A stretch of 46,931 nucleotides of DNA from Hydrogenophilales bacterium CG12_big_fil_rev_8_21_14_0_65_61_21 (GTDB lineage: Bacteria > Pseudomonadota > Gammaproteobacteria > Burkholderiales > Thiobacillaceae). The position numbers and the translations under genes were made by a program. Below are positions 1-14,509 of this stretch, in pieces. Where the stretch lies: positions 1 through 46,931 of the forward strand of contig PFGT01000011.1 of assembly GCA_002782005.1 (NCBI GenBank). The letters are read 5' to 3'. The notes under the pieces were generated by a model. It made no database searches. It was not told the origin of the DNA and worked only from the letters and a program-made list of their open reading frames with translations. Each line of letters opens with the position of its first letter. The first letter of the stretch is position 1.

Positions 1-259
1 TGGGCCGGGCCGGGTCGTCAGCGTAGACGATGCCGCAGTAGTTGTATTCGTGCTCCCGGCGCAGCAGGGCGTCCACCTCGGCCACGAATTTACCAAGCGC
101 CTCGGCATCCAGCGGCGCTTCGGGCGGCGCTTCGCCGGCCAGGCTGGCGTACCAGCCCTCCGGCTCGGCGCGCACCCGTGCCCACAGGTCATCCAGTTGC
201 GGCCAGTGCAGGATGCCCTGGAACGCACCGTTCATGCGGGTTGTGAATTCATTTTCCAT
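1..259 (-). CDS. conserved hypothetical protein, 3' end cut by window edge
   Basis: The frame opens at an ATG (257-259) and runs off the left edge with no stop, giving at least 86 residues. A GGAGCG stretch about nine bases upstream can serve as ribosome binding site. The visible part is acidic and soluble, with a Trp-rich N-terminal half (HWPQLDDLWARV), a helix with LLRREHEYNYCGIVYADDP near residues 65-82, and no signal peptide or membrane segment. I recognise the style of a small conserved protein found beside redox and sulfur genes in proteobacteria, but I cannot assign a function. It is the last visible gene of the long minus-strand series that includes the rhodanese and the RND pump. Confidence 0.6.
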   Translation of the reverse strand, partial: MENEFTTRMNGAFQGILHWPQLDDLWARVRAEPEGWYASLAGEAPPEAPLDAEALGKFVAEVDALLRREHEYNYCGIVYADDPARP

Positions 260-277
260 ATCAACGTGCGCTCCATA

Positions 278-465
278 TCAGGTAAAGGCCAGCGCCATAA
301 CCAGCAGCATGAACATCACTCCTGCCTTATGGAATGTGTGCATGACAGACTGGATGGCCTCCGACTTTTCGAGGTTTACCATCATTCAGCGACGACCTCA
401 TCGATCAGCTTGAGGGAACCCTTGCTGTTAGCGCTTCCGGCACCGAATACCCTGAGTTGAGACAT
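278..465 (-). pseudogene. decayed TM0996-like thioredoxin copy (CxxC changed to SxxS, broken frame)
   Basis: Two tiny overlapping frames follow the rhodanese stop by 12 bases. The first (382-465, 27 aa) begins MSQLRVFGAGSANSKGSLK and aligns without gaps to the start of the intact thioredoxin encoded at 6980-7276 (MDIKVLGTGCANCKTTLK); both active-site cysteines have become serine. It stops after EVVAE. The second (278-385, 35 aa), joined by an ATGA overlap, continues the homology with VNLEKSEAIQSVM against VQLKKVEDIHAIM and then diverges into a short hydrophobic end. The two together look like one ancestral gene broken by a small deletion and frameshift. The second frame has a fair SD (GAGGT, nine bases upstream), so the pieces could still be translated as peptides. 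Homology is seen directly; loss of function is inferred. Confidence 0.6.
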
Positions 466-477
466 GGCGCCCGCACT

Positions 478-1404
478 TTATAGCGCGAACTCCTCGTCGA
501 ACGGGGTTTCCCCAGTGACCACCGGCAGAGTGAAGGCGCGGTCCCAGATACCCCAGCCGCCATTGAGAACCCGCACATCCCGATAACCAAGCGATTTCAA
601 CTGTACCCAGCCCAAGCTCATGCGAAAGCCGTCGTGGCAGTAAAGATAGATGGTCTTGTCCTTGGCCGCTTGTTTGTAGAGGGCAGCCAGACGCTCGACA
701 TCGAACCACTTTTGAGTCTGGCCATCGGCGCCGTCCAGGCTGACCACGTTGATCGCGCCGGGGATGTGGCCGCCCTGCACGGAGTGCTTGATGACCTTGC
801 CGGTGTACATGTCGTGCGGCCGGGCATCGATCAGGACCACGTTGGGGTCGCGACGCGAGAGCACCTCGTCGTAGACCTGCTGCCATTCCACATAGTACTG
901 GCGCTTGGCCTGCTTGAGCGTGACTTTGCCAGCCTCGGGCGCGGCCGTGGCGACCTTGGTCAATTCGTTGAAGCCGCTCCACTCTTGCGCGCCGCCGTCG
1001 AGCAGCTTTACCCGGCTCATATCGAAACCATATAGGTCCAGCAGGTAATACAGTCGCGCGGCCAGGGCCGAGCGCGAATCGTCATACAGTACCAGGGTGG
1101 AATCGTCGTTCACGCCCCAGCCGCGCAGGGTGGACTCGAATTTTTCCTTGCTTGGGAACAACATGATCGAACGGCCGTCGTTGTCGCCCAGGTCCTTGAA
1201 CCGTTGCACCTGGATGGCGCCGGGAATGTGGCCAATCGTGAAATAGCGGTGCGGGTGATAGCGCACCTCCAGAACCACCAGCTTCGTATTCTTCCCTTTC
1301 TCGGCGGAAAGCCAGTCAGCGTCGACCAGGAAAGAACGGTCGGCGAAGGCGGGCAACGACAGAAAAGAAACCAGGACGATTAACAGACCCAGCCATTTAC
1401 GCAT
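478..1404 (-). CDS. periplasmic tandem-domain rhodanese (sulfurtransferase)
   Basis: A 308-residue protein with a Sec signal peptide (residues 1-21, ending AFA) and two rhodanese domains. The N-terminal domain (about 25-145) has Asp where the catalytic Cys would sit (VLYDDSRSALAARL), as usual for the inactive domain of tandem rhodaneses. The C-terminal domain (about 165-300) carries the active loop CHDGFR with Cys256. Enzymes of this family move sulfane sulfur from thiosulfate or a persulfide to a thiophilic acceptor; the signal peptide places this one in the periplasm. A GGAGGAGC ribosome binding site lies six bases before the ATG. It follows the RND gene across a small intrinsic terminator, so it may be partly uncoupled from the pump operon. 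The true substrate cannot be told from sequence. Confidence 0.9.
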   Translation of the reverse strand: MRKWLGLLIVLVSFLSLPAFADRSFLVDADWLSAEKGKNTKLVVLEVRYHPHRYFTIGHIPGAIQVQRFKDLGDNDGRSIMLFPSKEKFESTLRGWGVNDDSTLVLYDDSRSALAARLYYLLDLYGFDMSRVKLLDGGAQEWSGFNELTKVATAAPEAGKVTLKQAKRQYYVEWQQVYDEVLSRRDPNVVLIDARPHDMYTGKVIKHSVQGGHIPGAINVVSLDGADGQTQKWFDVERLAALYKQAAKDKTIYLYCHDGFRMSLGWVQLKSLGYRDVRVLNGGWGIWDRAFTLPVVTGETPFDEEFAL

Positions 1405-1415
1405 GATGCTCCTCC

Positions 1416-1439
1416 GAAAAAACGCGGCCGAAAGGCCGT
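1416..1439 (-). terminator. intrinsic terminator after the RND gene
   Basis: Read on the minus strand this is CGGCC-TTTC-GGCCG followed by CG and six T residues. It lies between the RND permease stop and the rhodanese ribosome binding site and would separate or attenuate the two transcripts. The stem is only five base pairs, so readthrough is plausible. Confidence 0.55.
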
Positions 1440-1457
1440 AAAACTTGAAGGGATAAG

Positions 1458-4400
1458 CTACCGGCCGTCGCTCATCGTTGATCTTTGTTTCACCCAGACA
1501 TAGAACATGGGCAGATAGAACAGCGAGAGCACGGTACCGATGAGCAGGCCGCCGATGGCGGTATCGGCCAGCGGCGACAGGCGTTCCAGGCCGACGGCGT
1601 GTTCCAGGGCCACCGGCAAGAGGCCGGCGATGGTGCCGAAGGCGGTCATCAGAATGGGGCGATAGCGCAGGCGGATGGAATCGCGCGCGGCGGTCAGCGG
1701 CGCATCGCCCTCACGCTCGCGGTGGTGGATGAAGTCGACCATCAGGATGGAGTTCTTGACGATGATGGAGAACAACAGAATGATGCCCAGGATGGCCGGC
1801 AGGGCCATGGCCTTGTCGAACAGCAAGAGGCCCCACACCGCGCCGATGGCCGACAGCGGCAGCACGAGCATGGCGATGCCGGCCAAGGTGAAGCTGCCGT
1901 AGGCCGGCACCAGCACCGCGAACAGCAGCAACATGCCCAGCCCCATGCCGGCCATCATGCGTTTGCTCGACTCCGTGCCCTCGCCGTTGTCGCCCTTCTC
2001 CACCAGGGTGACGCCGGGCGGTAGCACAGCACGGGCTGCGGCCTCGGCCTCACCGGCGAGTACGCTGGACGGCGCTTTCTCGCGCCAGGCCAGGATGTCC
2101 AGGCTGTATTGCATGCGGTCACGGGTCAGCGTCGAAACCGCCTGGGCACGGGCCAGGGTGCCGAGTTCGCCAAGGCTAACGGATTGACCATTTGGAAGCT
2201 GAATGGGCAGCAGCATCAGGGTGGCGGGCTCGGCCCGGTAGGCGTCGCTGAAGTAGCTCTTCACCGGGATCGCGCTGACCGTGGACAGCTTGGATAGGCT
2301 GGCCACTGCACCGCCTTTCAGCGGTAGTTGCGCCACCACCATTTCCGGCGTCAGGCCCAGGCTGCGCAGGCGTTCCTCGTCGAGCGCGAGCACGGTTTCC
2401 TGGGCGTCGGCATCCCACACGGTGGACACCGAGGTCAGACCCGGCACCCGGGACAAGGCTTCTCGTACCTTGGCAGCGGCTTCCGGCAGGCGGCGCCAGT
2501 CCTCGGAATAGAGGCGGATATCCACCGTCGCCTTGATGGTGGACATCGGGGTGATGCCGTAGCCATAGACGTCAGCGGCGGTGACGCCAGGCAACGCGGC
2601 CAGGCGTTTACGCAGATCGGCCTCGATCGCCCAAGTGTCCTCGGCGCGCTCAAAGCGGTTGACGTAGGCCAGGGTGAAGGTGGCCTCGGCCGGCAGTTGG
2701 CCGGAGCCGAGCGAGATCACCCCCGGCTCCGAACCGAACGCCAGGCTGACCCGTTTCAGTCGCTTGTCCCGCGTCAGTGCCTGCTCGAAGGCGGCCAGCC
2801 GGGCCTCCGCCACCGCCACCGGCTCGTTAGCGGAGAAGCGTACATGCGCCTTGATGATGCCGCTGTCCATCGGCGGCAGGGCGTCACGTCCCACCATGGG
2901 CATGATCAGTATGAAGCTGGCCGCCAGCAGTGCGTAGGCCGGCAGCACTAACAGCCAGCGACGCAAGGTGCCGCCAGCGAAGGCCCAATCCAGCCAGCGT
3001 ACATAAAGCCCGGCGCCCGGCCCCAGCGTGCGCTGATAGAGCCGTTCCAGAAAACGTTCGAAGCGGTTCTTCTCTGGCAGGCCGTTGCGGTACCAGAAGA
3101 AGGACAGGCGCGGGATGAAGGTGATGGCCACGAAATACGATACCAGCACGGCGATGATGAGTGGAAACACCAGATGCTTGAACATCTGTTCAGTGAAGTC
3201 GCCGACGAACATCAACGGCGCAATCACTACGACGGTGGCGATGGTGCCGACGAACACCGGGAACAGCACCTCCTCGGTCCCTTTGCGGATGGCGCTGGTG
3301 ACGTCCTCATGCAACTCGCCCAGGTGGCGTTCGATGTTTTCCAGCACCACCACGGCATCGTCCACCAGCATGCCCAGCGCCAGAATGATGGCGGTCAGCA
3401 CGATGGTGTTCATCTCCTTGCCGGTGAGCCAGAGCACGGCCAGGGTAATGAGGAACACCAGCGGGATGGAAATCAAGGCGGTAGTCACTGCACGCCAGTT
3501 GCCGAGGAAGAACAGGATGACGATGCTGGTGAAGATGATCGCGTCGCGCAGCGCCTCCATCATGTTGTTGTTAGATGTCTCGATCAGTTCGCCTTGGGTG
3601 TCGGCGACGGCGATTTCCAGGCCAGGGTAGCGCGCCCGCAGTTCCGGCAGTTTCGCCTCCGCCTCGGCGATAGCGTCGGCCACCGCGCCGCCAGGGGCAC
3701 GCTGGATGGCCACGGCGATGGCCGGCTTGCCATTGCCGTGATAGGCGGAGAAGCGTTCACCCTCGCCCAGCCGGATGTCGGCCAGATCGCCCAGCGCCAG
3801 GCCGGGCGCGACCGGCAGCAGGCGCAGGCGCTCGGCGTCGCTGCCTTCGCCGTAGATGGTCAGCGTGGTCGAAGCGCCGCCGCCTTGCAACGTGCCCAGC
3901 GGCCAGTCACGGTTGACCTTGGCCAGCAAATCCTGGAATTGGGCCTGCGAGAGGCCGTGGCGAGCCAGCTTCAAGGGATCGAACTCCACCCGTAGCGTCG
4001 GCTCATGACCGCCGAATATCTCGACGTTGGCGACATGTGGCTGGGTAATCAGCGCCGCGCGTAAATCGTTTTCCGCCAGCAGGCGGACTTGCGACAATGA
4101 GAGCCCGCTGCCCGCCTTGGGCGACACCGCCAGCACCATGACCGGATTGGTGAAACTGCCGATCGGGTAGATAGCGGACGGCGGCACTTCCGGCGGCAGC
4201 CTGGCGCGCACTTTTGAGAGTGCATTGGAGACGTCGACCAGGGCGGCGTCGAGACCTTTGGTGTATTCGAACTCGGCCTTGACGATGGACACCTCGTTCT
4301 TGCTGGTGCTCTCCACGTTACGCACGCCGGAGAGGGCATAGAGTTCCTGCTCGATGGGCCGCGACAACTTCTGTGCCACGGTCAGCGCCGCCGCGCCCGG

Positions 4401-4547
4401 CAACTGGGTGATGACCATGACCTGCGGCCGCTCCACGTCCGGATACATGTTGCGCGGCAGATTGAGATAACCCACCACCCCAAGCAGGGAGGCCATGAGC
4501 AGGATGATGGCCAGCAACTGGGGGCGGGCGTGGAAGAAGCGGAACAT
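1458..4547 (-). CDS. RND-family efflux pump inner-membrane permease
   Basis: At 1029 residues this has the normal length of an AcrB/HAE-type RND permease. An N-terminal membrane helix (about 10-28) is followed by a large periplasmic loop, then a helix bundle with LVDDAVVVLENIERH near residue 400, which holds the paired Asp residues of the proton relay. A second periplasmic loop (about 550-830) and five more helices complete the duplicated fold. The protein drives substrate/proton antiport together with an adaptor and an outer-membrane channel. Both partners lie directly upstream in the same operon (TolC-like, adaptor, then this gene, three bases after the adaptor stop). Substrate is unknown; the sequence lacks an obvious HME-type metal signature that I can name, and the ars-gene context is only suggestive. 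Confidence 0.92.
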   Translation of the reverse strand: MFRFFHARPQLLAIILLMASLLGVVGYLNLPRNMYPDVERPQVMVITQLPGAAALTVAQKLSRPIEQELYALSGVRNVESTSKNEVSIVKAEFEYTKGLDAALVDVSNALSKVRARLPPEVPPSAIYPIGSFTNPVMVLAVSPKAGSGLSLSQVRLLAENDLRAALITQPHVANVEIFGGHEPTLRVEFDPLKLARHGLSQAQFQDLLAKVNRDWPLGTLQGGGASTTLTIYGEGSDAERLRLLPVAPGLALGDLADIRLGEGERFSAYHGNGKPAIAVAIQRAPGGAVADAIAEAEAKLPELRARYPGLEIAVADTQGELIETSNNNMMEALRDAIIFTSIVILFFLGNWRAVTTALISIPLVFLITLAVLWLTGKEMNTIVLTAIILALGMLVDDAVVVLENIERHLGELHEDVTSAIRKGTEEVLFPVFVGTIATVVVIAPLMFVGDFTEQMFKHLVFPLIIAVLVSYFVAITFIPRLSFFWYRNGLPEKNRFERFLERLYQRTLGPGAGLYVRWLDWAFAGGTLRRWLLVLPAYALLAASFILIMPMVGRDALPPMDSGIIKAHVRFSANEPVAVAEARLAAFEQALTRDKRLKRVSLAFGSEPGVISLGSGQLPAEATFTLAYVNRFERAEDTWAIEADLRKRLAALPGVTAADVYGYGITPMSTIKATVDIRLYSEDWRRLPEAAAKVREALSRVPGLTSVSTVWDADAQETVLALDEERLRSLGLTPEMVVAQLPLKGGAVASLSKLSTVSAIPVKSYFSDAYRAEPATLMLLPIQLPNGQSVSLGELGTLARAQAVSTLTRDRMQYSLDILAWREKAPSSVLAGEAEAAARAVLPPGVTLVEKGDNGEGTESSKRMMAGMGLGMLLLFAVLVPAYGSFTLAGIAMLVLPLSAIGAVWGLLLFDKAMALPAILGIILLFSIIVKNSILMVDFIHHREREGDAPLTAARDSIRLRYRPILMTAFGTIAGLLPVALEHAVGLERLSPLADTAIGGLLIGTVLSLFYLPMFYVWVKQRSTMSDGR

Positions 4548-4550: not shown

Positions 4551-5693
4551 TTACTTCCCTGCGATATAGGGCGCGCCGGCCAGGAGCCGGGTGAGGATGT
4601 CCGGGCTGGCGCAGGCGACGCGGGCGCCAGCGAGGGTTGTGTCGCTGCTTGCTACGCCCTCCTCGCCACTGGCGGCCACGGCGACGTCCAGACGTGCCAC
4701 GCGGCCGCCGTCAAGCAGCTTCAACACGGCGGCGTGCTGGCCGTCATCACCTAGCAGGCAGGCGCGCGGCAGCAGCACAGCGGTGTCGGCGCGAAAGATT
4801 TCCAGCCGGGCCGAGGCGCGGGAGCCAGGTTGCAGGGCGGCGTGGCTTTTGGCTTCAAAGCGGGCCATGCCCTGCCCCACCGCCTCCGGCCAGGGAGTGA
4901 GCGGCAAAGTTTCATTGCCGATATGCAGGGTTTTGGGGTGCAGGCCGTCCGGCACGTTCGCCAGCAGGCGCACGCCAGCGGACAGGTCCATCACCTTCAA
5001 CAAGGGCTTGCCGGGCGCAGCCAGGTCGCCGGGCTGGGCCAGACGCTGCGTCACCACGCCATCGAACGGCGCGGCGATCACGCCGTAACGCAGATTCTCG
5101 CGCGCCGCGCCGGCTTGCGCCTCGGTCGCCCGCAACAACGCGCGGTAACTCTTCACCGCGTTGCCGGCGGCGGTCTCGCGGGCACGCGCCGCTTCCAGGG
5201 CGGCTTGCGCGGCCTGCACCTGTTCCAGCGCCACACCGCCGATGGCGAGCAGGGATTCCAGACGCTGATTGCGCTCCTGCTCCGCCTTCAGGTTGCTACG
5301 CGCCGCAGCCAGGTCGGCGGCAACGCTGCTTTCCTGCAAGCGTACCCGCGCCAGTTCCGCCTCGGCGCGCAAACGGTCGGCCTCGGCCTGGGCCAGATCC
5401 AGCCGCACCAGCACCTCGCCCTTTTTGAAGCGGTCGCCTTCGAGGCGGGTCAATTCGGTGATGTTGGCAGAAAAGCGGCTGGCCAGCACCGCTTCACGCG
5501 CTGCCAGCACCTCGACGCTGGCGGGCAGGGTCAAGGTCACCGATCCGGCAGCGAGACTACGCGCCGCCACCACCACGGCGGGGATGCCAGCCACGGGGCG
5601 TTGGGCCACCTGGGCGCGCTTGTGCCTGACGGCCAGCACGGCGCCGACTATCAGGACCAGGAGGATCACGGCGATCAGGAGTTTTTTCATCAT
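4551..5693 (-). CDS. RND efflux periplasmic adaptor subunit (MFP/HlyD type)
   Basis: A 380-residue adaptor with an N-terminal membrane anchor (about 4-22). The first half of a lipoyl/barrel-sandwich domain (GDRFKKGEVLVRLDLAQAEA) leads into a long coiled-coil hairpin rich in Ala, Glu, Arg and Leu (about 105-205). The second half-motif (GVIAAPFDGVVTQRLAQPGD) and a C-terminal beta-barrel/membrane-proximal part follow. It bridges the RND permease to the outer-membrane channel in the periplasm. Its ATG overlaps the stop of the TolC-like gene (ATGA) and its stop is three bases before the permease, so all three are translationally coupled. Confidence 0.9.
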   Translation of the reverse strand: MMKKLLIAVILLVLIVGAVLAVRHKRAQVAQRPVAGIPAVVVAARSLAAGSVTLTLPASVEVLAAREAVLASRFSANITELTRLEGDRFKKGEVLVRLDLAQAEADRLRAEAELARVRLQESSVAADLAAARSNLKAEQERNQRLESLLAIGGVALEQVQAAQAALEAARARETAAGNAVKSYRALLRATEAQAGAARENLRYGVIAAPFDGVVTQRLAQPGDLAAPGKPLLKVMDLSAGVRLLANVPDGLHPKTLHIGNETLPLTPWPEAVGQGMARFEAKSHAALQPGSRASARLEIFRADTAVLLPRACLLGDDGQHAAVLKLLDGGRVARLDVAVAASGEEGVASSDTTLAGARVACASPDILTRLLAGAPYIAGK

Positions 5694-6949
5694 TTCGGGT
5701 CCAGTATCTCGATGTATTCGGTTTCCGGCGTACCCGCCAGCACCTGGGCAGCAGACCAGGCATAGGCGGCCTGGGCGCGGCTGCTGGCGAGGCGGTATTC
5801 GGCATCGAGCAGGTCGCGCTCGGTGCGCAGCAGGTTTTCCAGGGTCTGCGCGCCCAGCCGGGTCTTTTCCCGTTCCACCGTCACCACCTCGGTGCGATAG
5901 GCGCTTTCGCTTTCCAGGGCCACCGCCGTGGCGCGCGCGCTGTCATATGCGGCCTTCAAGCTGGTCAGTTGCTTTGCGGTCTCGCGTTCGGTGGCGCGAC
6001 GCTCGTCGTCCGCCACGCGCGCCCTGGCCGCCTCGGCGTCGGACTGATGCCAGGCGCTGGGCGTCAGCGGCACGGCCAGTTGCACGCCGGCTTCCCATAT
6101 CGCGTTGTCGGCGCCGCCGCCATGTTGGTCGAACCAACTGCCGTTGAGCGACAGTTGCGGCCGCAGACCGCGCCGGCTTTCGTCGGCCCGGGCGCGGGCG
6201 CTGCTGGCGCGGGTGGCGGCCAGTTTGACCGGCAGGGTCTCGGCCAGCGCCGCTACGCGCCAGGCCGGTTGCGCGATCGTCGCCTCCGCCGGACGGCGGC
6301 GCTGGCCGCTGGCTTCATCCAGTTCCGCCAACGCGGTGTCCACCCCTACCGCCAGTTGCGCCTCGTCGGCCAAAACCCGCTGGTATTCACTCTCGGCCAG
6401 GCGCAGAGATACGCGGGCAGTCTTGCCCAACGCAACCTCCTTTATCAGCCGGTCGCGGAAGGCGGTCACGCTGGCCTTGAGTTTGCCCAGCGCCTCGGCC
6501 TGCCGGACCAGGGCTTGCAGGCGGAACCAGGCAGCGGCGATTTGATGCATCCGCGCCAAGCGATCTTGAGTTTCAATCAGGCGGGCGGCTTGCAGGTTGC
6601 CTTCCGCCCGCTCACGGGCCTTCGCTACCACCCCGAATACGTCGATGGGCAGGCTGTAGATCACACCGGCGCGGGCGATGTCACGGCTCACGTCGGGCGG
6701 CGCCGGGTCGCCCGGCGTGTAGGCGCCCACCACGCGCGGATGCTCGAAACGAGACAGCCCCGCCAGCAGGCTGCCCTGACCGTAGTAGCGCGCCTTGGCC
6801 GCCTTCAGGTCGGCGCCGGCAGCAGCCACGTCGCCGGCGCGGGCGGCGGCGCGGGGATGGTCCAGGCTGGCATGGAGCAGGTCGGCCAGGGGACCGGCGG
6901 AAACCAGCGCCGGCCAGAGGGTTAACAGTAGGACGGACAATCGCTTCAC
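5690..6949 (-). CDS. TolC-family outer-membrane efflux protein
   Basis: A 419-residue protein with a signal peptide (MKRLSVLLLTLWPALVSAG) and two repeats of long Ala/Arg/Leu/Glu-rich helices, the pattern of the TolC trimeric channel; the length suits the family. It should form the outer-membrane exit duct for the RND pump whose adaptor and permease follow in the same operon. The adaptor start overlaps its stop by four bases. Thirty bases separate it from the thioredoxin gene upstream on the same strand, so transcription probably continues from the permease/thioredoxin pair. Confidence 0.87.
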   Translation of the reverse strand: MKRLSVLLLTLWPALVSAGPLADLLHASLDHPRAAARAGDVAAAGADLKAAKARYYGQGSLLAGLSRFEHPRVVGAYTPGDPAPPDVSRDIARAGVIYSLPIDVFGVVAKARERAEGNLQAARLIETQDRLARMHQIAAAWFRLQALVRQAEALGKLKASVTAFRDRLIKEVALGKTARVSLRLAESEYQRVLADEAQLAVGVDTALAELDEASGQRRRPAEATIAQPAWRVAALAETLPVKLAATRASSARARADESRRGLRPQLSLNGSWFDQHGGGADNAIWEAGVQLAVPLTPSAWHQSDAEAARARVADDERRATERETAKQLTSLKAAYDSARATAVALESESAYRTEVVTVEREKTRLGAQTLENLLRTERDLLDAEYRLASSRAQAAYAWSAAQVLAGTPETEYIEILDPK

Positions 6950-6979: not shown

Positions 6980-7276
6980 TCAAGCGCAACCACCGCTACC
7001 ACAACAGCAGCCGCCAGCCTTGGCCGACGCCGGCGCGACGCTGGCAGCCGATAGCCAAGCGGCGATCTTGTCGCGGCTGGGTACGCCGCCGGCATGGACC
7101 ACCTTGCCGTCGATCACCACGCCTGGGGTGGACAGGACGCCATACGCCATGATGGCGTGGATGTCCTCGACCTTTTTGAGTTGGACCGTGATGCCTTTTT
7201 CAGCGGCGACCTCCTCGATCAGTTTAAGGGTGGTCTTGCAGTTGGCACAGCCCGTGCCGAGTACCTTGATATCCAT
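6980..7276 (-). CDS. TM0996-like small thioredoxin with Cys-rich tail
   Basis: A 98-residue thioredoxin-fold protein of the redox-active disulfide protein 2 type. The active-site motif C10-A-N-C13 follows strand 1, and the cis-Pro region is STPGVVIDGKVVHAG (residues 49-63). The start is the ATG at 7274-7276, where the domain begins; a longer open frame upstream overlaps the permease gene and is not supported. Unusually it ends in a tail with four Cys (CCCGSGGC, residues 90-97) that could bind a soft metal(loid) or add thiols. The gene sits 11 bases after the ArsP-like permease, a pairing often seen for this family. A likely role is cytoplasmic thiol/disulfide chemistry serving the permease or arsenical handling; that is inference. 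Confidence 0.85.
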   Translation of the reverse strand: MDIKVLGTGCANCKTTLKLIEEVAAEKGITVQLKKVEDIHAIMAYGVLSTPGVVIDGKVVHAGGVPSRDKIAAWLSAASVAPASAKAGGCCCGSGGCA

Positions 7277-8343: not shown

Positions 8344-8433
8344 GTCAGGGTCTCCGTTTGAATTGGGCGAAGCAAAACGCACCTCACTGTAGAAGACGGT
8401 TTGCAGTAAAAAAAGATGCAGGCGATGAAGAAA

Positions 8434-8720
8434 TATCAGGAAGAAGCCTCGCGGCTCCTCCCTCCCACACCACCGGACGAACGGGTCACGTATCCGGCGG
8501 TTCGATGAATTGAATTCTTACCATGCGGCAAGGCTCGGTACTCCCAGGCGCAATGGTAAGGCCAAAGCCAGAGCGGGTGTCTTCGACCATCGCCATGGCC
8601 CGTGGGCGGACTTGCTGGTGTTCCACGCTTCGCGCACGGCGACGCCGCACCTGCACAGTTCCCTATAGCCCGCCGGCCCCCATTGTTCGCGATATTTTGT
8701 AAGGAGTGGCAAGTGATGCA
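8434..8720 (-). mobile_element. group II intron 3' remnant (intron-encoded RT C-terminus plus domains V and VI)
   Basis: On the minus strand, bases 8503 down to about 8470 read GAACCGCCGGATACG, then ACCCG, then CGTCCGGTGG. This is the domain V hairpin of a bacterial group II intron, followed by GTGGGAGGG and a domain VI-like GGAGCC/GGCTTC hairpin ending near 8434. Just upstream a frame ending at 8518 encodes AWNTSKSAHGPWRWSKTPA and then LALALPLRLGVPSLAAW, which resembles the C-terminal tail found on group II intron reverse transcriptases. The body of the reverse transcriptase and the intron 5' end are missing. It abuts the broken transposase gene at 8723. The assignment rests on remembered family patterns, not on a search. 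Confidence 0.6.
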
Positions 8721-8722: not shown

Positions 8723-10075
8723 TTAGCTAGACCTGACCCCACCGGTTTGACCCCACCGGTTTTGTGCTGACCCCACCGGTTTTGTGGTGGCCACGTCATG
8801 CCAAGAAATCATCCTGGCATACATCGTCGAACCGTCTGGCCGCAGGCATGGGATGTCCAGCGGCGAGACATCCCCGCACACCAAATCGCCCGGCATGAGC
8901 GCCCGCGCCGTACGCCGGACGGGCGTCAAGTTATCGTCGTAGATCGCCTTGCCGTCGCGCAAGGCCTTTCCCGAAACCCGGAAATGCTGCCCCTCGGCCG
9001 CCAAAAAGCGCCGCGCCGCCGGCAGCGTGAGCAGCCGCGCCAGCCACCCGTCAGGGCATCCTCCGGCGCGTAAATCCTTCGCCATCCAGGCCGTGGCCTT
9101 CAGCCAGCACTGCCGCTCGCCATCCGCCCCGCCCGTCCACGCCCCGCGCACCTTGTCACGCAGCATCTCGGCCAGTTTGGGCATGTCGTAGCCCCGCTCC
9201 GCAGCGCCTGGCCAGGCCGAGAGCAGCCCGGCGGCCCAAGCCTCGAACTCGCTCGACACCATCGCCCGCGCCACGCCCCGGTCGGCCCGTCTGCCCAGGC
9301 GGATGAGCGCATCCAGCCCGCCCACGCGTAACTTTTCCTCGTAGCGGTACACCTGCTGCCACGACCGGCCCAAATCCCGGGCGATCGCCTCCGCCATCGC
9401 CCGCCGTCCGCGGTGGCGGTCCGGCAGGGCCAGCAAGGGCTGCAATGCGGCCATGATCTTGCGCGCCTGCGTCACACGCGCCGCGTCCTGCTCGGACACC
9501 GGCGCCACCAGCGAGCCGATGAGAATCGAATGGGTGGCAGGGGTGGCCGCGCCCGCGACCTCGCTCAAGGCCCACTCGTCGAGGTGAGCCCCCCGCCGTG
9601 CGCCTCCGCCGGCAGCACGCCGTGCCGGAGTGCCACCCCCGCCGGGGAGCCCACCCGTCCCGGTGGCCGCCGGGATGGCCAACTGGCCGACGGGCGAGGG
9701 CACCCCCGTCTGGATGGACTCCCCGGCGGGGGCGGCCGGCATCACCGCGCCCGCTTCACATGCGGCAGATGTCCCATGCGCGGAGTGGCCCACGAAATCG
9801 CCGCAGCCTCCGCCTCCTGCCGAAATCGGGAGGCTGGGTTTAGCTGCTTGCTCGCCATTTATCCGCTCCTTCCGCTCTGTTTTTTCGGCCCTCGCCGCCT
9901 GCTGCGCCTCAAGCGGCAGACTGGACAGCGCGATCTCGATGCCCTTGCCTCGCACTTTTGAGCGATGCACGAGCAAATTTTTTTGGCTCATCCGCCTGAT
10001 CGACACCTCGTGTGTAGGCATCCCAGGCAACCGCATCGTAGCGATCTGCTGCGGCGTCAACCAAATCTCTCTCAT
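8723..10075 (-). pseudogene. Mu-type (MuA-like) transposase, 3' truncated
   Basis: From the ATG at 10073-10075 the frame begins MREIWLTPQQIATMRLPGMP and continues with a winged-helix end-binding domain like MuA domain I-alpha. A Gly/Ala/Pro-rich linker follows (about 85-195), then a second HTH block (RSWQQVYRYEEKLRVGGLDAL) like MuA I-beta/gamma, then the start of the DDE catalytic core at GDVSPLDI with its first Asp. After WHDVATTK (about residue 431) homology ends in a triple repeat and a spurious tail. MuA is 663 residues, so the other two catalytic acids are missing and the enzyme should be dead. The low-complexity linker is unusually long. It is the third gene of a minus-strand early operon facing the repressor. 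Confidence 0.7.
8734..8784. repeat. triple tandem repeat at the transposase/intron junction
   Basis: TGACCCCACCGGTTT occurs three times (8734-8748, 8748-8764, 8768-8784), with spacers of zero and a few bases. It lies exactly where the MuA-like reading frame loses homology. It may mark a recombination scar or serial insertion-sequence ends. Confidence 0.7.
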
Positions 10076-10212
10076 GATAATTCCCGGTACAACGCGGCGG
10101 CGATCTCTGCGCGCTGATCTTGCGGCATGCCGCGTCGGCAAGCCTCGTCGGCTGCGGCGATGCACCTCACCAACCGCTTGAACCACGCCCATCCGCCGCG
10201 CAGCCGCATCAT
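10072..10212 (-). CDS. small phage-type protein, function unknown
   Basis: A 46-residue frame (starts MMRLRGGWAWFKRLVRCIAA, ends ALYRELS) lies between the gp16-like gene and the transposase. Its start overlaps the stop of the upstream gene (TGATG) and its TGA overlaps the transposase ATG, so it is embedded by translational coupling on both sides. This is the strongest argument that it is a real gene. The product is basic and probably helical. I recognise no family; small early genes of this kind are common in transposable phages. Confidence 0.5.
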   Translation of the reverse strand: MMRLRGGWAWFKRLVRCIAAADEACRRGMPQDQRAEIAAALYRELS

Positions 10213-10442
10213 CGCACCGCCTCCAGTTCCACATCTGCTTCCAGCGTCCGCCGCAGATCGCGCATGATCGCCCGCTTGATGCCGCCCAGCGGCTCGTGGT
10301 CGTCCCGCATGCCCCAGTCATAGACCGCTCGGCGCGCCGTCACTGGCAGGTAGCCGTGCGCCAGTGCCCACGCGGAAAGACTGCGCCATCCGCGCAGGGC
10401 CAGCTTGCCGCGAACCTGATCCATCGTCCCTAGTTGCTTCAT
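10209..10442 (-). CDS. small phage regulator with HTH (BcepMu gp16-like)
   Basis: A 77-residue protein whose centre, LRGWRSLSAWALAHGYLPVT, followed by an aromatic-rich helix, resembles the short HTH proteins encoded next to the repressor in BcepMu-type transposable phages. It is the first gene of the leftward early operon, and the divergent repressor gene starts about 170 bp away. A TTGACA/TACACT promoter lies just upstream of its ATG (10440-10442). In Mu the equivalent position holds the Ner-type early regulator, so a role in the lysis-lysogeny switch is plausible. Only the motif and gene position support this. Confidence 0.5.
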   Translation of the reverse strand: MKQLGTMDQVRGKLALRGWRSLSAWALAHGYLPVTARRAVYDWGMRDDHEPLGGIKRAIMRDLRRTLEADVELEAVR

Positions 10443-10470
10443 AACTGCTAAACTCGTAGCTATTTAGTAC

Positions 10471-10501
10471 AGTGTAGCGCACTTTTGAGCTAGTATGTCA
10501 A
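10471..10501 (-). promoter_or_regulatory. leftward early promoter of the Mu-like remnant
   Basis: The minus strand reads TTGACA (10496-10501), a 19-base spacer, then TACACT (10471-10476), 28 bases before the ATG of the gp16-like gene. Two copies of ACTTTTGAGC (10481-10490 and 10504-10513, 23 bases apart) lie within and beside it. The spacer is slightly long for sigma-70. Confidence 0.5.
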
Positions 10502-10517
10502 CTACTTTTGAGCGATG

Positions 10518-10613
10518 TCGTGCACGATTCGCGCACGATTCGGATGCACTTTTCTCCCTGAATCGTGCATCCCAGTACGAATCGTGCGCACGATTCTCAA
10601 GAGCAAATCGTGC
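10518..10613. promoter_or_regulatory. repressor operator array (GCACGATT / AATCGTGC sites)
   Basis: The octamer GCACGATT or its complement recurs across the divergent control region. Sites are the palindrome TCGTGCACGA at 10518-10527 with the half-site continuing to 10529, a half-site at 10533-10540 exactly 11 bases on, AATCGTGC at 10561-10568, a perfect 18-bp palindrome GAATCGTGCGCACGATTC at 10579-10596, and AATCGTGC at 10606-10613 overlapping the repressor start. The phasing and palindromy are what cooperative repressor binding needs. The adjacent XRE protein is the obvious ligand. Confidence 0.75.
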
Positions 10614-11038
10614 ATGAATCGGACTTTCCTGCCCGCCTGAAGGAATGTATAGGCGATGAGTCAGTTGCGTCCTTTGCTCGACGCTGCGGCTTCTCTGAAG
10701 GTCTCATAAGGGCCTACCTTAAGGCCCAGAAGCGGCCAGGGATGGAGAGGATTGTTCGCATTGCCGAAGTCGCTGGCGTCACCCTGGACTGGCTGGCCAC
10801 AGGGCTCGGCCCGCGCCGCCGTGCAGACGCGCAACCCCGCGCCAGTATTGAAGATTTGGCAGGCCAGCACGCCCGCCGATGGGAGAAAATCATCACCCTC
10901 ATCGAGGGCATTGAGGACGAATCCGCTCACGTCGCCGCAATCGAGGAGCTTTTTACGCGCGCTCAATCTTCGGCAGAGATTGCCGATCTCCGTCAGGCCG
11001 TCAAAGCCCTGACCGAAGCCCAAAAAAAACGCGCCTGA
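10610..11038 (+). CDS. XRE-family phage repressor (Mu-like c)
   Basis: The protein has an N-terminal helix-turn-helix (VASFARRCGFSEGLIRAYLK) followed by ERIVRIAEVAGVTLDWLATG, the standard XRE/cI layout, then a helical C-terminal region. I chose the GTG at 10610 (142 aa), which has AAGAG six bases upstream. An in-frame GTG at 10565 (157 aa) would put operator sequence into the coding region and lacks an SD. There is no Ser/Lys autoprotease half, so induction would not be LexA-like. The gene is transcribed away from the transposase operon across a dense operator array, as expected for the lysogeny repressor of a transposable phage. It appears intact although the transposase is broken. Confidence 0.75.
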   Translation: MHESDFPARLKECIGDESVASFARRCGFSEGLIRAYLKAQKRPGMERIVRIAEVAGVTLDWLATGLGPRRRADAQPRASIEDLAGQHARRWEKIITLIEGIEDESAHVAAIEELFTRAQSSAEIADLRQAVKALTEAQKKRA

Positions 11039-11071
11039 CCCCTACAGCCAGGCGCATCACTAGATTTTTTT
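11031..11071 (+). terminator. probable terminator of the repressor gene
   Basis: GCGCCTG (11031-11037) pairs with CAGGCGC (11049-11055) across an 11-base loop, overlapping the repressor stop. A run of seven T residues begins nine bases later, so the geometry is not ideal. Confidence 0.4.
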
Positions 11072-11140
11072 CGTCGCACGCAATGCGAGCACGCCCCTCA
11101 CATGTCAAAACTGTGGAAAACTCGCCTAACCTACTGATTT

Positions 11141-11199
11141 CCCGCCCCTTCCCGCCCCTTCCCGCCCCTGTTCTGTCGCATCTACTTTGTCGCATCTAA
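11141..11199. repeat. tandem repeats at the right edge of the phage remnant
   Basis: The decamer CCCGCCCCTT occurs three times in a row (11141-11170, the last ending TG). Four bases on, TGTCGCATCTA occurs twice, 15 bases apart (11174-11184 and 11189-11199), and the second copy encodes the last codons of the sigma-factor gene. This is a good candidate for the right junction of the element. Nothing else is visible in 11072-11181. Confidence 0.55.
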
Positions 11200-11739
11200 T
11201 CTTTTCACTCCCAGTGGCCCCCTCGGCACGAAACAGCATACCTTCCCCGCTGCATCAAAGCGCACCTGGCAGGCGCTGGATAGATGTTCTCGTAGACGCT
11301 TGCGCGCCCGCTGCACGCGCGACTTGGCGCCGGGCAGGCTAAGACCTTTCAGGCGGGCATATTCCTCTTGGCCCAGGCCTTCCAGGTCGCACAAGGTGAT
11401 GGCCTCGCGGTCTTGCACGGACAGTTCCGCCAGGGCGCGCGGCAGGCATTGCACCAGGGTGTCCACCGGCACGGGGTCATCGATTTCGTGTACCAGATCG
11501 TCCGGCAGTTCAACCAGTTCCTTTTTCAAACGCAAGCGGTCGGCCAGGGCATTGCGCGCCACCTCGTACAGCCAGGCGCGGGGGTTATCGATCCGGCAGA
11601 ACTTTTTGTCCTGGCGCAGGGCCTTCAGAAACAGGTCCTGCAACAGGTCCTCGGCGTCGTGCTGATTACCCAGGCGACCCCGGAGCCAGGCACGCAGCTC
11701 GGCCTCATGGCGACGCCAGGCGGTCATCAGGCAGTTCAT
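11182..11739 (-). CDS. SigZ-like ECF/sigma-70 family RNA polymerase sigma factor
   Basis: I take the ATG at 11737-11739, giving 185 residues, close to Bacillus SigZ. A longer frame upstream would overlap arsM. Region 2 contains GNQHDAEDLLQDLFLKAL and the FCRIDNPRAWLYEVARNAL stretch. After a short linker, region 4 holds LSVQDREAITLCDLEGLGQE with the HTH YARLKGLSLPGAKSRVQRAR. It follows arsM by 16 bases, so it belongs to the ars operon. SigZ-like factors recur in such loci; whether it directs the downstream permease/RND genes is unknown. Its last codons lie in the repeat at the junction with the phage remnant, so the C-terminus may have been altered by the insertion. Confidence 0.8.
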   Translation of the reverse strand: MNCLMTAWRRHEAELRAWLRGRLGNQHDAEDLLQDLFLKALRQDKKFCRIDNPRAWLYEVARNALADRLRLKKELVELPDDLVHEIDDPVPVDTLVQCLPRALAELSVQDREAITLCDLEGLGQEEYARLKGLSLPGAKSRVQRARKRLREHLSSACQVRFDAAGKVCCFVPRGPLGVKRLDATK

Positions 11740-11755
11740 GGACGTTGCCAGGGTC

Positions 11756-12550
11756 CTAACCTGGCTTGACGGCCTGGATATTGGCCGAGGCGATGTAGTT
11801 CTCGACGCCGCGCCCCGGCGCCCATTGGCGGATGTAGTCGCGGCTGGCGTCTTTCGGCGCAATGTGGATTTCAACGAAGCCGGCCGCTTCGAGCAGGGCA
11901 GTCAGTTCGTTCACGCTGACCGCGCCGGCAACGCAGCCGGTGTAGAGGGCGACCTCGGCCTTCATGGCGTCCGGCAGTTCGGCGGTGAGTACGATGTCTG
12001 AGATGGCCAGCCGGCCGCCCGGCTTCAGCACCCGCCAGGCATCGCGGCAGACCTGGGCCTTGTCGGGCGCAAGGTTGATGACGCAATTTGAAATAATGAC
12101 ATCGACTGTGGCGTCGGCCACCGGCAGGTGCTCGATCTCGCCGAGGCGGAAGTTGACGTTGGCGTAGCCGCCCCTGGCGGCGTTGGCGTGTGCCTTGGTG
12201 AGCATGTCCGGGGTCATGTCGACACCGATGACCCGGCCGGTTGGACCGACCGCGTGGGCGGCCAGAAAGGCATCGAAACCAGCGCCGCTGCCCAGGTCGA
12301 GCACGGTCTCGCCCACCTTGAGATTGGCGATGGCCTGCGGATTGCCGCAGCCGAGTCCGAGGTTGGCGCCTTCCGGTACGGCGGCGGTCTCCTCGGCGCT
12401 GTAGCCGATGCCTTGTGTCAGCCGTTCGGCCGTCGATCGCTCCGTTGGCGTGCAGCAACTTGGGCCGCAACCGCAGCCGCCGGAACGGGCGATGACAGCA
12501 TAGGCGTCGCGGACTTGCTGGTGGATTTTGTCGTGTTCCAGGTCGCTCAT
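11756..12550 (-). CDS. arsM: arsenite S-adenosylmethyltransferase ArsM
   Basis: A 264-residue SAM-dependent methyltransferase with motif I VLDLGSGAGFD (residues 83-93). The arsenite-binding cysteines of ArsM are visible: C68 (NLGLGCGNP), C156 (IISNCVINL) and C206 (YTGCVAGA). There is also a Cys cluster at the N-terminus (GGCGCGPSCC, C26/C28/C32/C33). It converts As(III) to methylated arsenicals in the cytoplasm using SAM and a thiol reductant. It follows acr3 by nine bases and precedes the sigma factor. Production of methylarsenite gives a purpose to the ArsP-like permease found further downstream. Confidence 0.93.
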   Translation of the reverse strand: MSDLEHDKIHQQVRDAYAVIARSGGCGCGPSCCTPTERSTAERLTQGIGYSAEETAAVPEGANLGLGCGNPQAIANLKVGETVLDLGSGAGFDAFLAAHAVGPTGRVIGVDMTPDMLTKAHANAARGGYANVNFRLGEIEHLPVADATVDVIISNCVINLAPDKAQVCRDAWRVLKPGGRLAISDIVLTAELPDAMKAEVALYTGCVAGAVSVNELTALLEAAGFVEIHIAPKDASRDYIRQWAPGRGVENYIASANIQAVKPG

Positions 12551-12559
12551 GGATGTTCC

Positions 12560-13639
12560 TTAGTGAGAGGTAATGCCGGCTTCATACCAGCCTTTGCTTC
12601 GGTTGACGATCTTGACTACCAAGAGCATCACCGGCACCTCGATCAGCACACCGACCACAGTGGCCAACGCCGCGCCGGACTCGAAGCCGAACAACGAGAT
12701 GGCCGCCGCCACCGCCAGCTCAAAAAAATTGGAGGCGCCGATCAGGGCCGACGGGCAGGCGACGCTGTGCTTCTCGCCGACCGTGCGGTTGAGCCAGTAG
12801 GCCAGGGCCGAGTTGAAGAAGACCTGGATCAGGATCGGTACCGCCAGCAGCGCGATAATCAGCGGTTGGTTCAGGATCGCCTCGCCCTGGAAGGCGAATA
12901 GCAGCACCAGCGTGGCCAGCAGGGCCAGGATGGAGGCTTGGCCGAGCGTCGCCAGGGTGGCGTCAAACCGGACTTGACCCTGTTTCAGCAAGGCCTTGCG
13001 CCAGACCTGCGCCAGGAGCACCGGGATGACGATATACAGCAGCACCGAGGTGAACAGCGTCGCCCACGGCACGGTGATGGCCGACAGGCCCAGCAGCAAG
13101 CCAACGATGGGCGCGAAGGCGACGATCATGATGGTGTCGTTGAGCGCCACCTGGGACAAAGTGAAGTATGGGTCGCCATTGGTGAGCCGGCTCCAGACGA
13201 AGACCATGGCGGTGCAGGGCGCGGCGGCGAGCAGGATGAGACCGGCCACGTAACTATCCAGTTGTTCGGCTGGCAGGTATGGCGCGAACAGATGGCGGAT
13301 GAACAGCCAGGCCAGCAAGGCCATGGAAAAGGGCTTGACCGCCCAGTTGACCAACAGGGTGACGCCGATGCCGCGCCAGTGTTCCTTGACCTGAGCCAGT
13401 GCGCCGAAGTCGATCTTCATCAGCATGGGGATAATCATTACCCAGATCAACAAACCGACCGGCAGGTTGACCTGGGCGACCTCCATGCGGCCCAAGGCAT
13501 GAAACGGCGCCGGGAACAACTGGCCCAGGACCACGCCGGCGACGATGCACAGCGCGACCCACAGCGACAGCCAGCGCTCGAACAGGCTCATCGGGGCGCC
13601 GGCGGCGCGTTTGGCGGTGACTTCGCATTGGGCCGACAT
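12560..13639 (-). CDS. acr3: arsenite efflux permease Acr3
   Basis: A 359-residue protein with about ten hydrophobic segments, the BART-superfamily Acr3 type rather than ArsB. The N-terminus reads MSLFERWLSLWVALCIVAGV after a short hydrophilic leader. The conserved-Cys helix is LLAAAPCTAMVFVWSRLTNG, the site through which Acr3 recognises arsenite. It exports As(OH)3 across the inner membrane. The start is two bases after the arsC stop and the stop nine bases before arsM, so all three are co-transcribed. Confidence 0.93.
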   Translation of the reverse strand: MSAQCEVTAKRAAGAPMSLFERWLSLWVALCIVAGVVLGQLFPAPFHALGRMEVAQVNLPVGLLIWVMIIPMLMKIDFGALAQVKEHWRGIGVTLLVNWAVKPFSMALLAWLFIRHLFAPYLPAEQLDSYVAGLILLAAAPCTAMVFVWSRLTNGDPYFTLSQVALNDTIMIVAFAPIVGLLLGLSAITVPWATLFTSVLLYIVIPVLLAQVWRKALLKQGQVRFDATLATLGQASILALLATLVLLFAFQGEAILNQPLIIALLAVPILIQVFFNSALAYWLNRTVGEKHSVACPSALIGASNFFELAVAAAISLFGFESGAALATVVGVLIEVPVMLLVVKIVNRSKGWYEAGITSH

Positions 13640-13641
13640 GG

Positions 13642-14055
13642 TTACAACTCCAGCGCGGCGCGCACGGCGGGCACCAGTCGCTCGTGGATGGCGTCGCGCA
13701 CCGCGATGAACGACTCCAGCGGCTCACCGTGCGGGTCGTGGAAGGGCAGGTGGATGGACCGCACAGGCTTCGGAAAGATCGGGCAGGTCTCCTTGGCGTT
13801 GTCGCAGACAGTAACCACGAGATCGATGGGCTCGTTCAGGAACACGCTGACGTCCTTCGGGTACAGCCCGTCGGTGGCCAGGCCGATCTGATTCAGCGCC
13901 GCGACGGCGCCATCAGCCACCTTGGTCTGCGGCCGAGTGCCGGCAGAGACGGCGCGGGCCCGGCCGGCGAGGTCGTGGTTGACCAGGGCCTCGGCCATTT
14001 GCGAGCGACAGGAGTTGCCGGTGCAAAGTATAAGGACGGTGGGGAGTTTGTTCAT
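13642..14055 (-). CDS. arsC: arsenate reductase ArsC, low-molecular-weight phosphatase type
   Basis: A 137-residue protein with the P-loop CTGNSCRS (C11 to S18) typical of LMW-PTP-derived arsenate reductases, and a second Cys pair C84 and C91 (VCDNAKETCP) that would carry the disulfide relay reduced by thioredoxin. It reduces arsenate to arsenite for export by Acr3 and methylation by ArsM. It is the first gene after the second promoter/operator and lies two bases before acr3. This is the thioredoxin-coupled Bacillus/Staphylococcus type, not the glutaredoxin-coupled plasmid R773 type. Confidence 0.93.
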   Translation of the reverse strand: MNKLPTVLILCTGNSCRSQMAEALVNHDLAGRARAVSAGTRPQTKVADGAVAALNQIGLATDGLYPKDVSVFLNEPIDLVVTVCDNAKETCPIFPKPVRSIHLPFHDPHGEPLESFIAVRDAIHERLVPAVRAALEL

Positions 14056-14104
14056 GGCGCAATCTCGGTAGGGAAAAAGATCGGACAGCTTAGCCCGAAA
14101 ATCT

Positions 14105-14133
14105 TACATATATATGACATAGCATATATTCAA
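14105..14133 (-). promoter_or_regulatory. arsC promoter with ArsR-type operator
   Basis: The minus strand reads TTGAAT (14128-14133), 17 bases, TATGTA (14105-14110). The spacer and -10 hold an inverted repeat with arms ATATATG (14110-14116) and CATATAT (14123-14129). The GAATATA half resembles the operator ahead of arsR. It sits between the arsR stop and arsC, so arsC-acr3-arsM can be started separately. Confidence 0.55.
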
Positions 14134-14471
14134 GCACAGCAACGGACTGGCCGGCACACCATATCAGCCAGTCGTTTACTGTCCGCCTTGCCGAATGGAT
14201 TCGGGCTATCGCGGGCCAGCGTCTCCAGGATGCGATAGGCCCAGAGTGGCAATTGCGGATCGAGTCGGTAAAAAATCCAGGTACCTTCTCGGCGCAGGCT
14301 CAATAAACCAGCTTCGCGCATGATGGCCAGGTGGCGGGATGTCTTGGGTTGAGGCATGTCCAGGGCCGCAGTCAGTTCGCATACGCACAACTCACCCTGG
14401 ACCAGAAACAGTGACAATAACCGGCGACGAGTTGTGTCCGAGAGTATTCCGAAGAAGTCTTGAGTGTCCAT
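14130..14471 (-). CDS. arsR: ArsR-family arsenite-responsive repressor
   Basis: A 113-residue winged-helix repressor. The helix with the As(III) site reads ELCVCEL (C29 and C31), close to the classic ELCVCDL motif, followed by the recognition helix QPKTSRHLAIMREAGLL. A C-terminal CRPVRCCA (C106, C111, C112) adds further candidate ligands. I chose the ATG at 14469-14471 because the in-frame ATG at 14481-14483 lies inside the -10 hexamer of its own promoter; the resulting leader is very short or absent. It represses the ars genes and is released by arsenite. It is divergent from nothing; the whole cluster runs the same way. Confidence 0.9.
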   Translation of the reverse strand: MDTQDFFGILSDTTRRRLLSLFLVQGELCVCELTAALDMPQPKTSRHLAIMREAGLLSLRREGTWIFYRLDPQLPLWAYRILETLARDSPNPFGKADSKRLADMVCRPVRCCA

Positions 14472-14481
14472 CGTGTGCCAC

Positions 14482-14509
14482 ATTATATTCACAATAACGA
14501 ATATAACAA
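14482..14509 (-). promoter_or_regulatory. arsR promoter and autoregulatory operator
   Basis: On the minus strand TTGTTA (14504-14509), a 16-base spacer and TATAAT (14482-14487) form a sigma-70 promoter. A perfect inverted repeat TTATATTC (14483-14490) and GAATATAA (14499-14506) covers spacer and both hexamers, so bound ArsR would block polymerase. Confidence 0.7.

Follow-up and report, generated by a model that had tools for sequence, protein, structure and literature searches.

Descriptions of arsenic efflux in bacteria usually stop at the inner membrane. Among the transporters of arsenic (ars) operons, ArsP is an exporter of methylarsenite (PMC11653729, citing Chen 2015), and ArsP, the thioredoxin-like redox-active disulfide protein 2 and CcdA are reported members of such operons (PMC2963123). 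In the available part of a survey of more than 700 ars-operon transporters, no member of the resistance-nodulation-division (RND) family is listed, and eight entries are given as 'hypothetical' (Yang 2015, PMC4435449). The accessible text of PMC2963123, whose search did not extend to sigma factors, makes no use of the word RND, nor was the word found by search in the accessible text of a review (PMC6205960); the corresponding part of PMC7060636 places arsP in an ars operon and names RND proteins separately. Among the titles and abstract openings listed by searches of open-access papers, none dealt with an RND pump combined with ArsP or with an extracytoplasmic function (ECF) sigma factor belonging to ars operons. 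Here we describe an island of arsenic genes that includes a complete RND efflux trio, located on contig PFGT01000011.1 of Hydrogenophilales bacterium CG12_big_fil_rev_8_21_14_0_65_61_21. The whole contig of 46,931 nucleotides (G000:C69, from a 2.27-Mb genome in 126 contigs) was analysed and is called the window below. What appears to be new is that known ars parts and an RND trio would be joined by a sigma factor and its promoter, an arrangement for which we found no description. The first-pass annotation of this DNA, which knew of no described system with this composition, agrees with the literature found, including the survey that, in its available part, is without RND transporters (PMC4435449).

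Parts of the island are familiar. It shares ArsP and the redox-active disulfide protein 2 with the operons treated in the accessible part of PMC2963123, and ACR3 and ArsP with those of the survey, where, as far as the text is available, ArsP cluster 2 is marked by the tPF-C(S/T)C signature that the window permease carries (Yang 2015, PMC4435449). A larger counterpart is known from deposited annotation on plasmid pSCD of Sulfuricella denitrificans skB26 (NC_022358.1), an organism whose arsenite-oxidase (arx) genes are placed on a plasmid in the accessible text of PMC6549141. The pSCD island has arsR, rhodanese, arsC, acr3, an ArsP-type permease, arsM, thioredoxin, a SigZ-like sigma factor, TolC, membrane-fusion protein (MFP) and RND genes on one strand, together with a perfect copy of the promoter motif described below. 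Its rhodanese, RND protein and sigma factor are 63%, 66% and 76% identical to those of the window. It differs in being larger, with an added periplasmic thioredoxin, CcdA, OsmC, TauE, FmdE and a second RND gene, in the position of the rhodanese gene, which follows arsR, and in having the motif directly before tolC, not arsP. The second TolC-MFP-RND set of pSCD (L107:24647-30284; loci are labelled L with a number) lies further down the same gene row beside a CDF transporter gene, and its RND protein is below the NCBIfam cut-offs.

We consider it rather probable that the island is made up of two transcription units, linked through a sigma factor acting as relay, and that its pump clears the product of ArsP from the periplasm. 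The sigma factor gene ends the ars operon and a palindrome with a promoter stands before arsR, which suggests a relay from ArsR through sigZ to arsP-trx-tolC-mfp-RND (trx, thioredoxin gene). ArsR would control the first unit, arsR followed by arsC-acr3-arsM-sigZ. Arsenic would derepress this unit, leading to arsenate reduction, arsenite export, methylation and synthesis of the SigZ-like sigma factor, which would direct RNA polymerase to a TGCATC-N16-CGTC promoter before arsP and so turn on the second unit, arsP-trx-tolC-mfp-RND. ArsP would move a trivalent (organo)arsenical into the periplasm, with the Cys-tailed thioredoxin helping as carrier or reductant, and the MFP-RND-TolC complex would take the arsenical from there to the outside. 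Both the induction of the second unit by arsenic and the cargo of the pump are inferred from gene arrangement and sequence. If true, a co-regulated RND-TolC pump would extend arsenic efflux across the outer membrane, and the sigma factor with its motif would form a second regulatory layer for arsenic operons alongside ArsR. Such a layer is directly testable, because the motif predicts a regulon in any genome.

Gene content and order were established by computation, with gene identities taken from hidden Markov model scores (Pfam, NCBIfam cut-offs) and intergenic gaps from the ends of the open reading frames (ORFs). The row occupies the minus strand between 14471 and 478, beginning with arsR and ending with the rhodanese gene, and is followed by a decayed thioredoxin gene and a cut hypothetical gene (Table 1). 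All genes named in the first-pass annotation were recovered in this way, with the correction that not everything in the row is on the minus strand, a phage repressor gene being on the plus strand. In the first unit, 74 bases separate arsR from arsC, two arsC from acr3, nine acr3 from arsM and 28 arsM from sigZ (16 if an earlier ATG is used). The palindrome upstream of arsR overlaps a sigma-70-like promoter found by promoter scan at 14509-14482. ArsC is assigned by fold and motif only, as the cut-offs for thioredoxin-type arsenate reductases were missed (NF010053, 82 of 215 bits; TIGR02691, 72 of 174). The last gene of the operon encodes an ECF sigma factor with sigma regions 2 and 4 (PF04542, PF08281) and a TIGR02937 score above the cut-off; we call it SigZ-like because the SigZ model TIGR02959 was narrowly missed. 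In L180 and L183 the gene follows acr3, with gaps of two and six bases.

The second unit is headed by an ECF-type promoter motif, TGCRTCYTTTT-N11-CGTC, which begins 77 bases before arsP and is common to the arsP upstream regions of sigZ-bearing loci. Its layout is that of ECF-type promoters. The spacer is 11 bases, and a pattern with a 10-base spacer does not catch the window site. In about 2 Mb of loci (two duplicates, L176 and L017, are left out), 36 sites with at most one mismatch were found at this spacing and one with the reversed pattern; other spacers from 8 to 14 gave 0-2 sites each and the reversed pattern 0-4. Allowing spacers of 10-12 there are 38 distinct sites, and for 28 of them a member of the island gene families begins no more than 350 bases downstream: arsP (12), tolC (one, in pSCD), trx, acr3, periplasmic thioredoxin/ccdA, fmdE, cdf, sufC, mfp and the hypothetical family c45. 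The motif follows the matched end of sigZ at a distance of 7-50 bases in eight loci (L023, L028, L107, L180, L181, L183, L184, L188).

The motif and the sigma factor also go together across 300 genomes of the order. Perfect sites (TGCATCYTTTT-N11-CGTCWYC) are present in 10 of the 16 genomes with a SigZ-like factor (E <=1e-25) and in none of the 284 without one (p 6e-15). With one mismatch allowed the figures are 13/16 and 15/284, and the reversed control gave nine matches in total against 34 real ones. Several points weigh against this association. Three sigma-positive genomes (G163, G195, G256) are without a site at up to one mismatch. Moreover, the motif was first found in these same loci, and therefore unseen cases matter; these are only two genomes, G111 and G034, and the plasmids. 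In G111 the site is 50 bases before the arsP match, in G034 as many as 1145. A predicted regulatory link between the sigma factor and arsP with the pump is well supported by sequence, and this sigma factor would be the one that reads the motif.

Table 1. Features of the arsenic island in the window, listed in the order of its gene row
Feature	Position	Strand	Basis
ArsR-operator-like palindrome TATATTC-N8-GAATATA	14484..14505	-	read from sequence; function inferred
arsR, metalloregulator	14130..14471	-	PF01022 4.6e-15; start 14471 or 14483, by eye
arsC-like arsenate reductase	13642..14055	-	LMW-PTP fold, Cys triad by eye; NF010053 5.8e-23, under cut-off
acr3, arsenite efflux transporter	12560..13639	-	TIGR00832 378 bits, above cut-off of 283
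arsM, arsenite methyltransferase	11756..12550	-	NF008823 363 bits, above cut-off of 263
SigZ-like ECF sigma factor	11182..11727	-	TIGR02959 167.0 bits, cut-off 168.65; PF04542, PF08281
Phage remnant	8723..11038	transposase -, repressor +	phrog_310 (transposase), phrog_3037, phrog_8503
Terminator-like hairpin upstream of motif	8438..8463	-	terminator scan; such sites overall not above shuffles
ECF-type promoter motif TGCATCTTTTT-N11-CGTCTTC	8392..8420	-	unique in whole genome at <=2 mismatches
arsP-type permease, 351 amino acids, TPFCSC motif	7288..8343	-	PF03773 1.2e-77
ArsE/MTH895-type thioredoxin, 98 amino acids, Cys-rich tail	6980..7276	-	TIGR00412 99.9 bits, above cut-off of 62
TolC-type outer-membrane channel	5690..6949	-	PF02321
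Membrane-fusion protein	4551..5693	-	PF16576; TIGR01730 under cut-off
RND permease, distinct subfamily	1458..4547	-	PF00873 1.5e-171; under all listed NCBIfam cut-offs
Terminator-like hairpin in the gap before rhodanese	1425..1438	-	terminator scan
Two-domain rhodanese	478..1404	-	PF00581 x2; signal-like N-terminus and active-site loop CHDGFR (second domain) by eye
Decayed thioredoxin copy (SxxS, early stop)	351..455	-	DNA alignment to intact trx
Hypothetical gene, 5' part (family c45), cut by contig end	2..259	-	relatives in L042, L055, L125, L188

Plasmids of gut bacteria, too, have similar sigma factors and versions of the motif next to arsenic genes. A sigma factor matching that of the window (E <=1e-15) is encoded in 1365 of 72,556 plasmid records. 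Nine of these records were inspected around the sigma gene: seven have annotated arsenic-operon genes there, one from Klebsiella variicola (L285) has a thioredoxin gene and a perfect motif, and a Vibrio record, whose SigZ is 27% identical, has no arsenic locus at the sigma gene. The Vibrio plasmid has a one-mismatch motif site about 2 kb upstream of its SigZ gene. The later-fetched plasmids L279, L280, L281 and L285 all hold motif sites. Those of Klebsiella huaxiensis (no mismatch), Ideonella dechloratans (one) and Citrobacter amalonaticus Y19 (three sites, 0-1 mismatches) precede permease, TauE or FmdE genes adjoining the ars operon. On the Citrobacter plasmid (L281:7604-12597) the three sites stand before tauE-cdf, fmdE on the other strand, and arsP-thioredoxin-rhodanese-DUF2703, and the genes behind them are a candidate arsenic regulon.

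The enterobacterial ars loci with this sigma factor are of two kinds, arsR-arsH-sigma-arsD-arsA and sigma-permease-thioredoxin. Their sigma factors are 41-51% identical to that of the window and, as in relatives of the window, the motif is located in the interval that follows the sigma gene; unlike in the window, no TolC-MFP-RND genes adjoin the sigma gene in the parts inspected. In the first kind the -10 element is CGTT. Three Klebsiella and Salmonella plasmids (L282, L283, L286, each 4959-5580) show the order arsR-arsH-sigma-arsD with a 75-base gap after the sigma gene. Here the sigma factor, located between arsH and arsD, is 41-44% identical, and the same spot reads, by eye, CGCATCTTTTT-N11-CGTT. 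This departure from CGTC, which left these loci unlisted by the CGTC scan, counts against the relay we favour; CGCATCTTTTT-N11-CGTT is a diverged version of the motif. The sigma-arsD stretch has matches in 62 of 5426 E. coli genomes, and in 42 of these the match covers 80% or more.

The C-terminal tail of the window sigma factor carries a Cys...Cys-Cys pattern. Within the order the first cysteine is found in 16 of 16 factors and the CC pair in 10 of 16; because the pair is not universal, the idea that this factor senses arsenic is no more than conjecture. A wider reading, in which a SigZ-like factor with this tail would sense trivalent arsenic and drive the TGCRTCYTTTT-N11-CGTC class across arsenic islands of both Betaproteobacteria and Gammaproteobacteria, those on enterobacterial plasmids among them, and in which the lineage of the window would have recruited RND-MFP-TolC to gain efflux across both membranes, is offered as a tentative possibility that we think doubtful as a whole.

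The pump belongs to the RND superfamily (PF00873, 573 bits across residues 1-1019). In RND pumps an Asp-Asp/Lys set forms the proton relay. D396, D397 and K931 are invariant in ten relatives and the Asp pair aligns with that of MdtB, so that the window pump resembles the MdtBC/AcrB-type HAE-1 pumps in its fold, the paired Asp in transmembrane helix 4 and the Lys in helix 10. It differs from them in missing all listed NCBIfam cut-offs, including that of HAE-1 (TIGR00915, 360 of 940 bits), and the RND paralogues of its own genome are merely 25-33% identical to it. A metal pump of the CusA/CzcA (HME) type was considered and rejected (TIGR00914, 306 of 701 bits). Direct binding of arsenic by thiolates of the RND protein was rejected as well, since the protein is without cysteine.

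The absence of cysteine also weighs against an arsenic pump, and the closest solved structures, such as MdtB, are drug pumps. Both fit an alternative that we regard as somewhat unlikely, in which a conventional drug or solvent pump of the HAE-1 type rides in the island, is placed under the arsP promoter by position only and carries a cargo other than arsenic. A search of the genome collection with an alignment of ten RND relatives gave 79 loci, to which those of the order and two hits on plasmids were added; after removal of duplicate copies and of six distant loci (L099, L102-L106), 81 loci were kept, 56 of them well-flanked (total flank >=10 kb). Most are from metagenome bins with broken contigs, and several of the named relatives are betaproteobacteria going by record titles. 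Neighbours were mapped with profiles built from proteins of the window and pSCD, counting arsP, acr3, arsC, arsM and the ArsE-type thioredoxin, but not arsR, as markers at >=60 bits; a single marker sufficed.

An ars marker lies within 10 kb in 24 of the 81 loci. Among the well-flanked ones the count is 17/56, with at least two kinds of marker in 13 of the 17, compared with 1/37 for loci of RND paralogues of the same order (Fisher p 9e-4; control flanks reach up to about 8 kb per side and case flanks 10 kb, which slightly favours the cases). In the sole positive control, L209, the markers (arsP, acr3 and arsC) are on the other strand from the RND gene. On a tree of 77 rows (four of the 81 were too short) the ars label has to change 14 times, with 13 of the changes forced by well-supported branches, compared with 20.0 for shuffled labels, and 10 when only well-flanked rows count: the RND pump has joined arsenic loci several times. 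Linked loci are found in Pseudomonadota, Nitrospirota, Acidobacteriota and bins titled Deltaproteobacteria or Thermodesulfobacteriota, and perhaps in Campylobacterota, where one short contig has a weak acr3-profile match. The islands of Nitrospirota were probably assembled separately, as their ArsP (52-55% identical) and Acr3 (30%) are quite different from those of the window.

The first-pass annotation had suggested that the trio may carry arsenicals, thioarsenicals or persulfides and had proposed a comparison of neighbourhoods, asking whether the RND/rhodanese block occurs routinely without ars genes. This comparison weakened the arsenic claim: 39 of the 56 well-flanked relatives lack any ars marker within 10 kb, where a trio dedicated to arsenic would always be accompanied by ars genes. 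The pump is therefore not arsenic-only, as a drug pump riding in the island would also predict. What stands of the claim is the excess over the paralogues and the sigma-type promoter shared with other genes of ars islands, whose motif in pSCD lies directly before tolC; both count against a mere passenger. Close relatives point both ways. They occur in 11 of the 300 genomes, with 62-93% identity to the window protein versus at most 31% for paralogues. L028 (91%) has arsP and trx close by; L029 (90%) and L022 (93%, partial) are without a marker and so speak against the linkage. An ArsP-type permease is present in 10 of the 11 RND-positive genomes and in 34 of the 289 others, a difference that follows families and is not independent evidence.

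The gene right before tolC could be scored by hand in 47 loci, leaving out those with less than 1.4 kb upstream or without tolC. It is trx in nine and a TetR regulator gene in 17, and both together never occur; 15 of the 28 scored marker-free loci have the TetR gene. The TetR gene in this place favours an ordinary drug pump. Against such a pump, none of the nine trx-tolC loci has a TetR gene in between, and a four-base overlap of trx and tolC is possible in bins of two other phyla (L074, and also L058 and L060 when the earliest start is used). One of the nine, L091, has merely a shortened thioredoxin, which subtracts from this argument. A swap from TetR to ars regulation as a proven trend was rejected: the exclusion of TetR and ars markers (Fisher p 0.005) loses its significance when independent pairs are compared (median p 0.375), which is another point against the arsenic link. 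So is the rarity of arsM, which accompanies just 4 of the 24 ars-linked RND loci (the window, L107, L033, L056). For this reason methylarsenite cannot be the general cargo, and that candidate was rejected.

Between motif and pump lie the two genes that would feed the pump in the relay we favour. The permease is of the ArsP type (PF03773, 261 bits, cut-off 32), and the C(S/T)C motif holds its sole cysteines, Cys116 and Cys118; it missed the cut-offs for SaoE (135 of 325 bits) and SO_0444 Cu-Zn efflux (103 of 300). The thioredoxin has cysteines at 10, 13, 90, 91, 92 and 97, the last four in a tail like that of some relatives and lacking in others, and its second half has a weak similarity to ArsD (E 1e-5, just below the Pfam cut-off). 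The genes are closely packed, with 11 bases between arsP and trx and 30 between trx and tolC, a four-base overlap of tolC and mfp, and three bases between mfp and the RND gene. In pSCD (L107:8429-8740) and in relatives (L170, L171, L172, L177, L178, L185-L187, L191, L193, L033 and others) a protein of about 100 amino acids is encoded between arsP and the thioredoxin, with a typical C-terminal end ...CCTPTxSGxxCC. It is missing from the window, has no match in Pfam or NCBIfam and is possibly a carrier of trivalent arsenic.

Downstream of the pump, the rhodanese gene is set apart by a 53-base gap holding a terminator-like hairpin, and its expression may therefore be weaker or independent. The protein scored 80 of 250 bits against the 3-mercaptopyruvate sulfurtransferase model NF008557. 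Its family occurs at 13 places in 12 of the 300 genomes, 11 of which are near ars markers in our maps (the exceptions are L169 and L175); in four (L170, L171, L172, L177) it is directly before arsP, and only in the window does it follow the RND gene. Of the block of RND and rhodanese genes proposed earlier, the ars link of the rhodanese is supported; its place behind the RND gene is peculiar to the window among these 13 places, and there the hairpin intervenes. Probably the rhodanese is an ars-linked accessory, partly co-transcribed in the window.

Rhodanese, thioredoxins, CcdA, OsmC, TauE/SafE and the RND trio could alternatively form a module for reactive sulfur (persulfide or thiosulfate) that has ars neighbours since sulfidic habitats are arsenic-rich. 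The recurrence of OsmC, TauE/SafE, FmdE, periplasmic thioredoxin and CcdA in the islands, the confirmed rhodanese fold and the names of several carriers, which are those of sulfur oxidisers, agree with this. We nevertheless judge it improbable. Acr3 and ArsM are arsenic families, a rhodanese is within 10 kb of just 2 of the 81 RND loci (the window and L107), and in the Klebsiella and Salmonella plasmid stretches arsenic genes adjoin the sigma factor gene and the motif, in its CGTC or CGTT form, with none of these sulfur genes annotated. The exceptions are the Citrobacter stretch with TauE, FmdE and rhodanese and L279 with a SulP anion transporter.

In the window 2838 bases separate sigZ from arsP, compared with 51-123 bases elsewhere (L023, L042, L180, L183, L184, L188), and this distance is occupied by the phage remnant, which parts sigZ from the motif and leaves the promoter whole. 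A mobile-element remnant, together with the varying content of the islands among loci, might suggest that unrelated resistance genes were merged here by coincidence. With the same order in unrelated lineages and a promoter motif in common, this explanation is very unlikely. Terminator-like sites across the scanned stretch numbered 13, versus 10.9 expected from shuffles.

The remnant of a thioredoxin gene beyond the rhodanese has 71% DNA identity to the intact trx over 113 alignment columns (E 5e-10), with both active-site cysteines changed to serine and a stop after 27 codons. For the c45 family at the contig end, the relative in L042 gave no match in Pfam or NCBIfam. The c45 gene adjoins trx or acr3 in L042, L055 and L188, not in L125, and in L042 a one-mismatch motif is located 326 bases before its matched part. 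Outside the island, a second rhodanese-like ORF with a single domain was seen by eye at 18224-18691 of the window.

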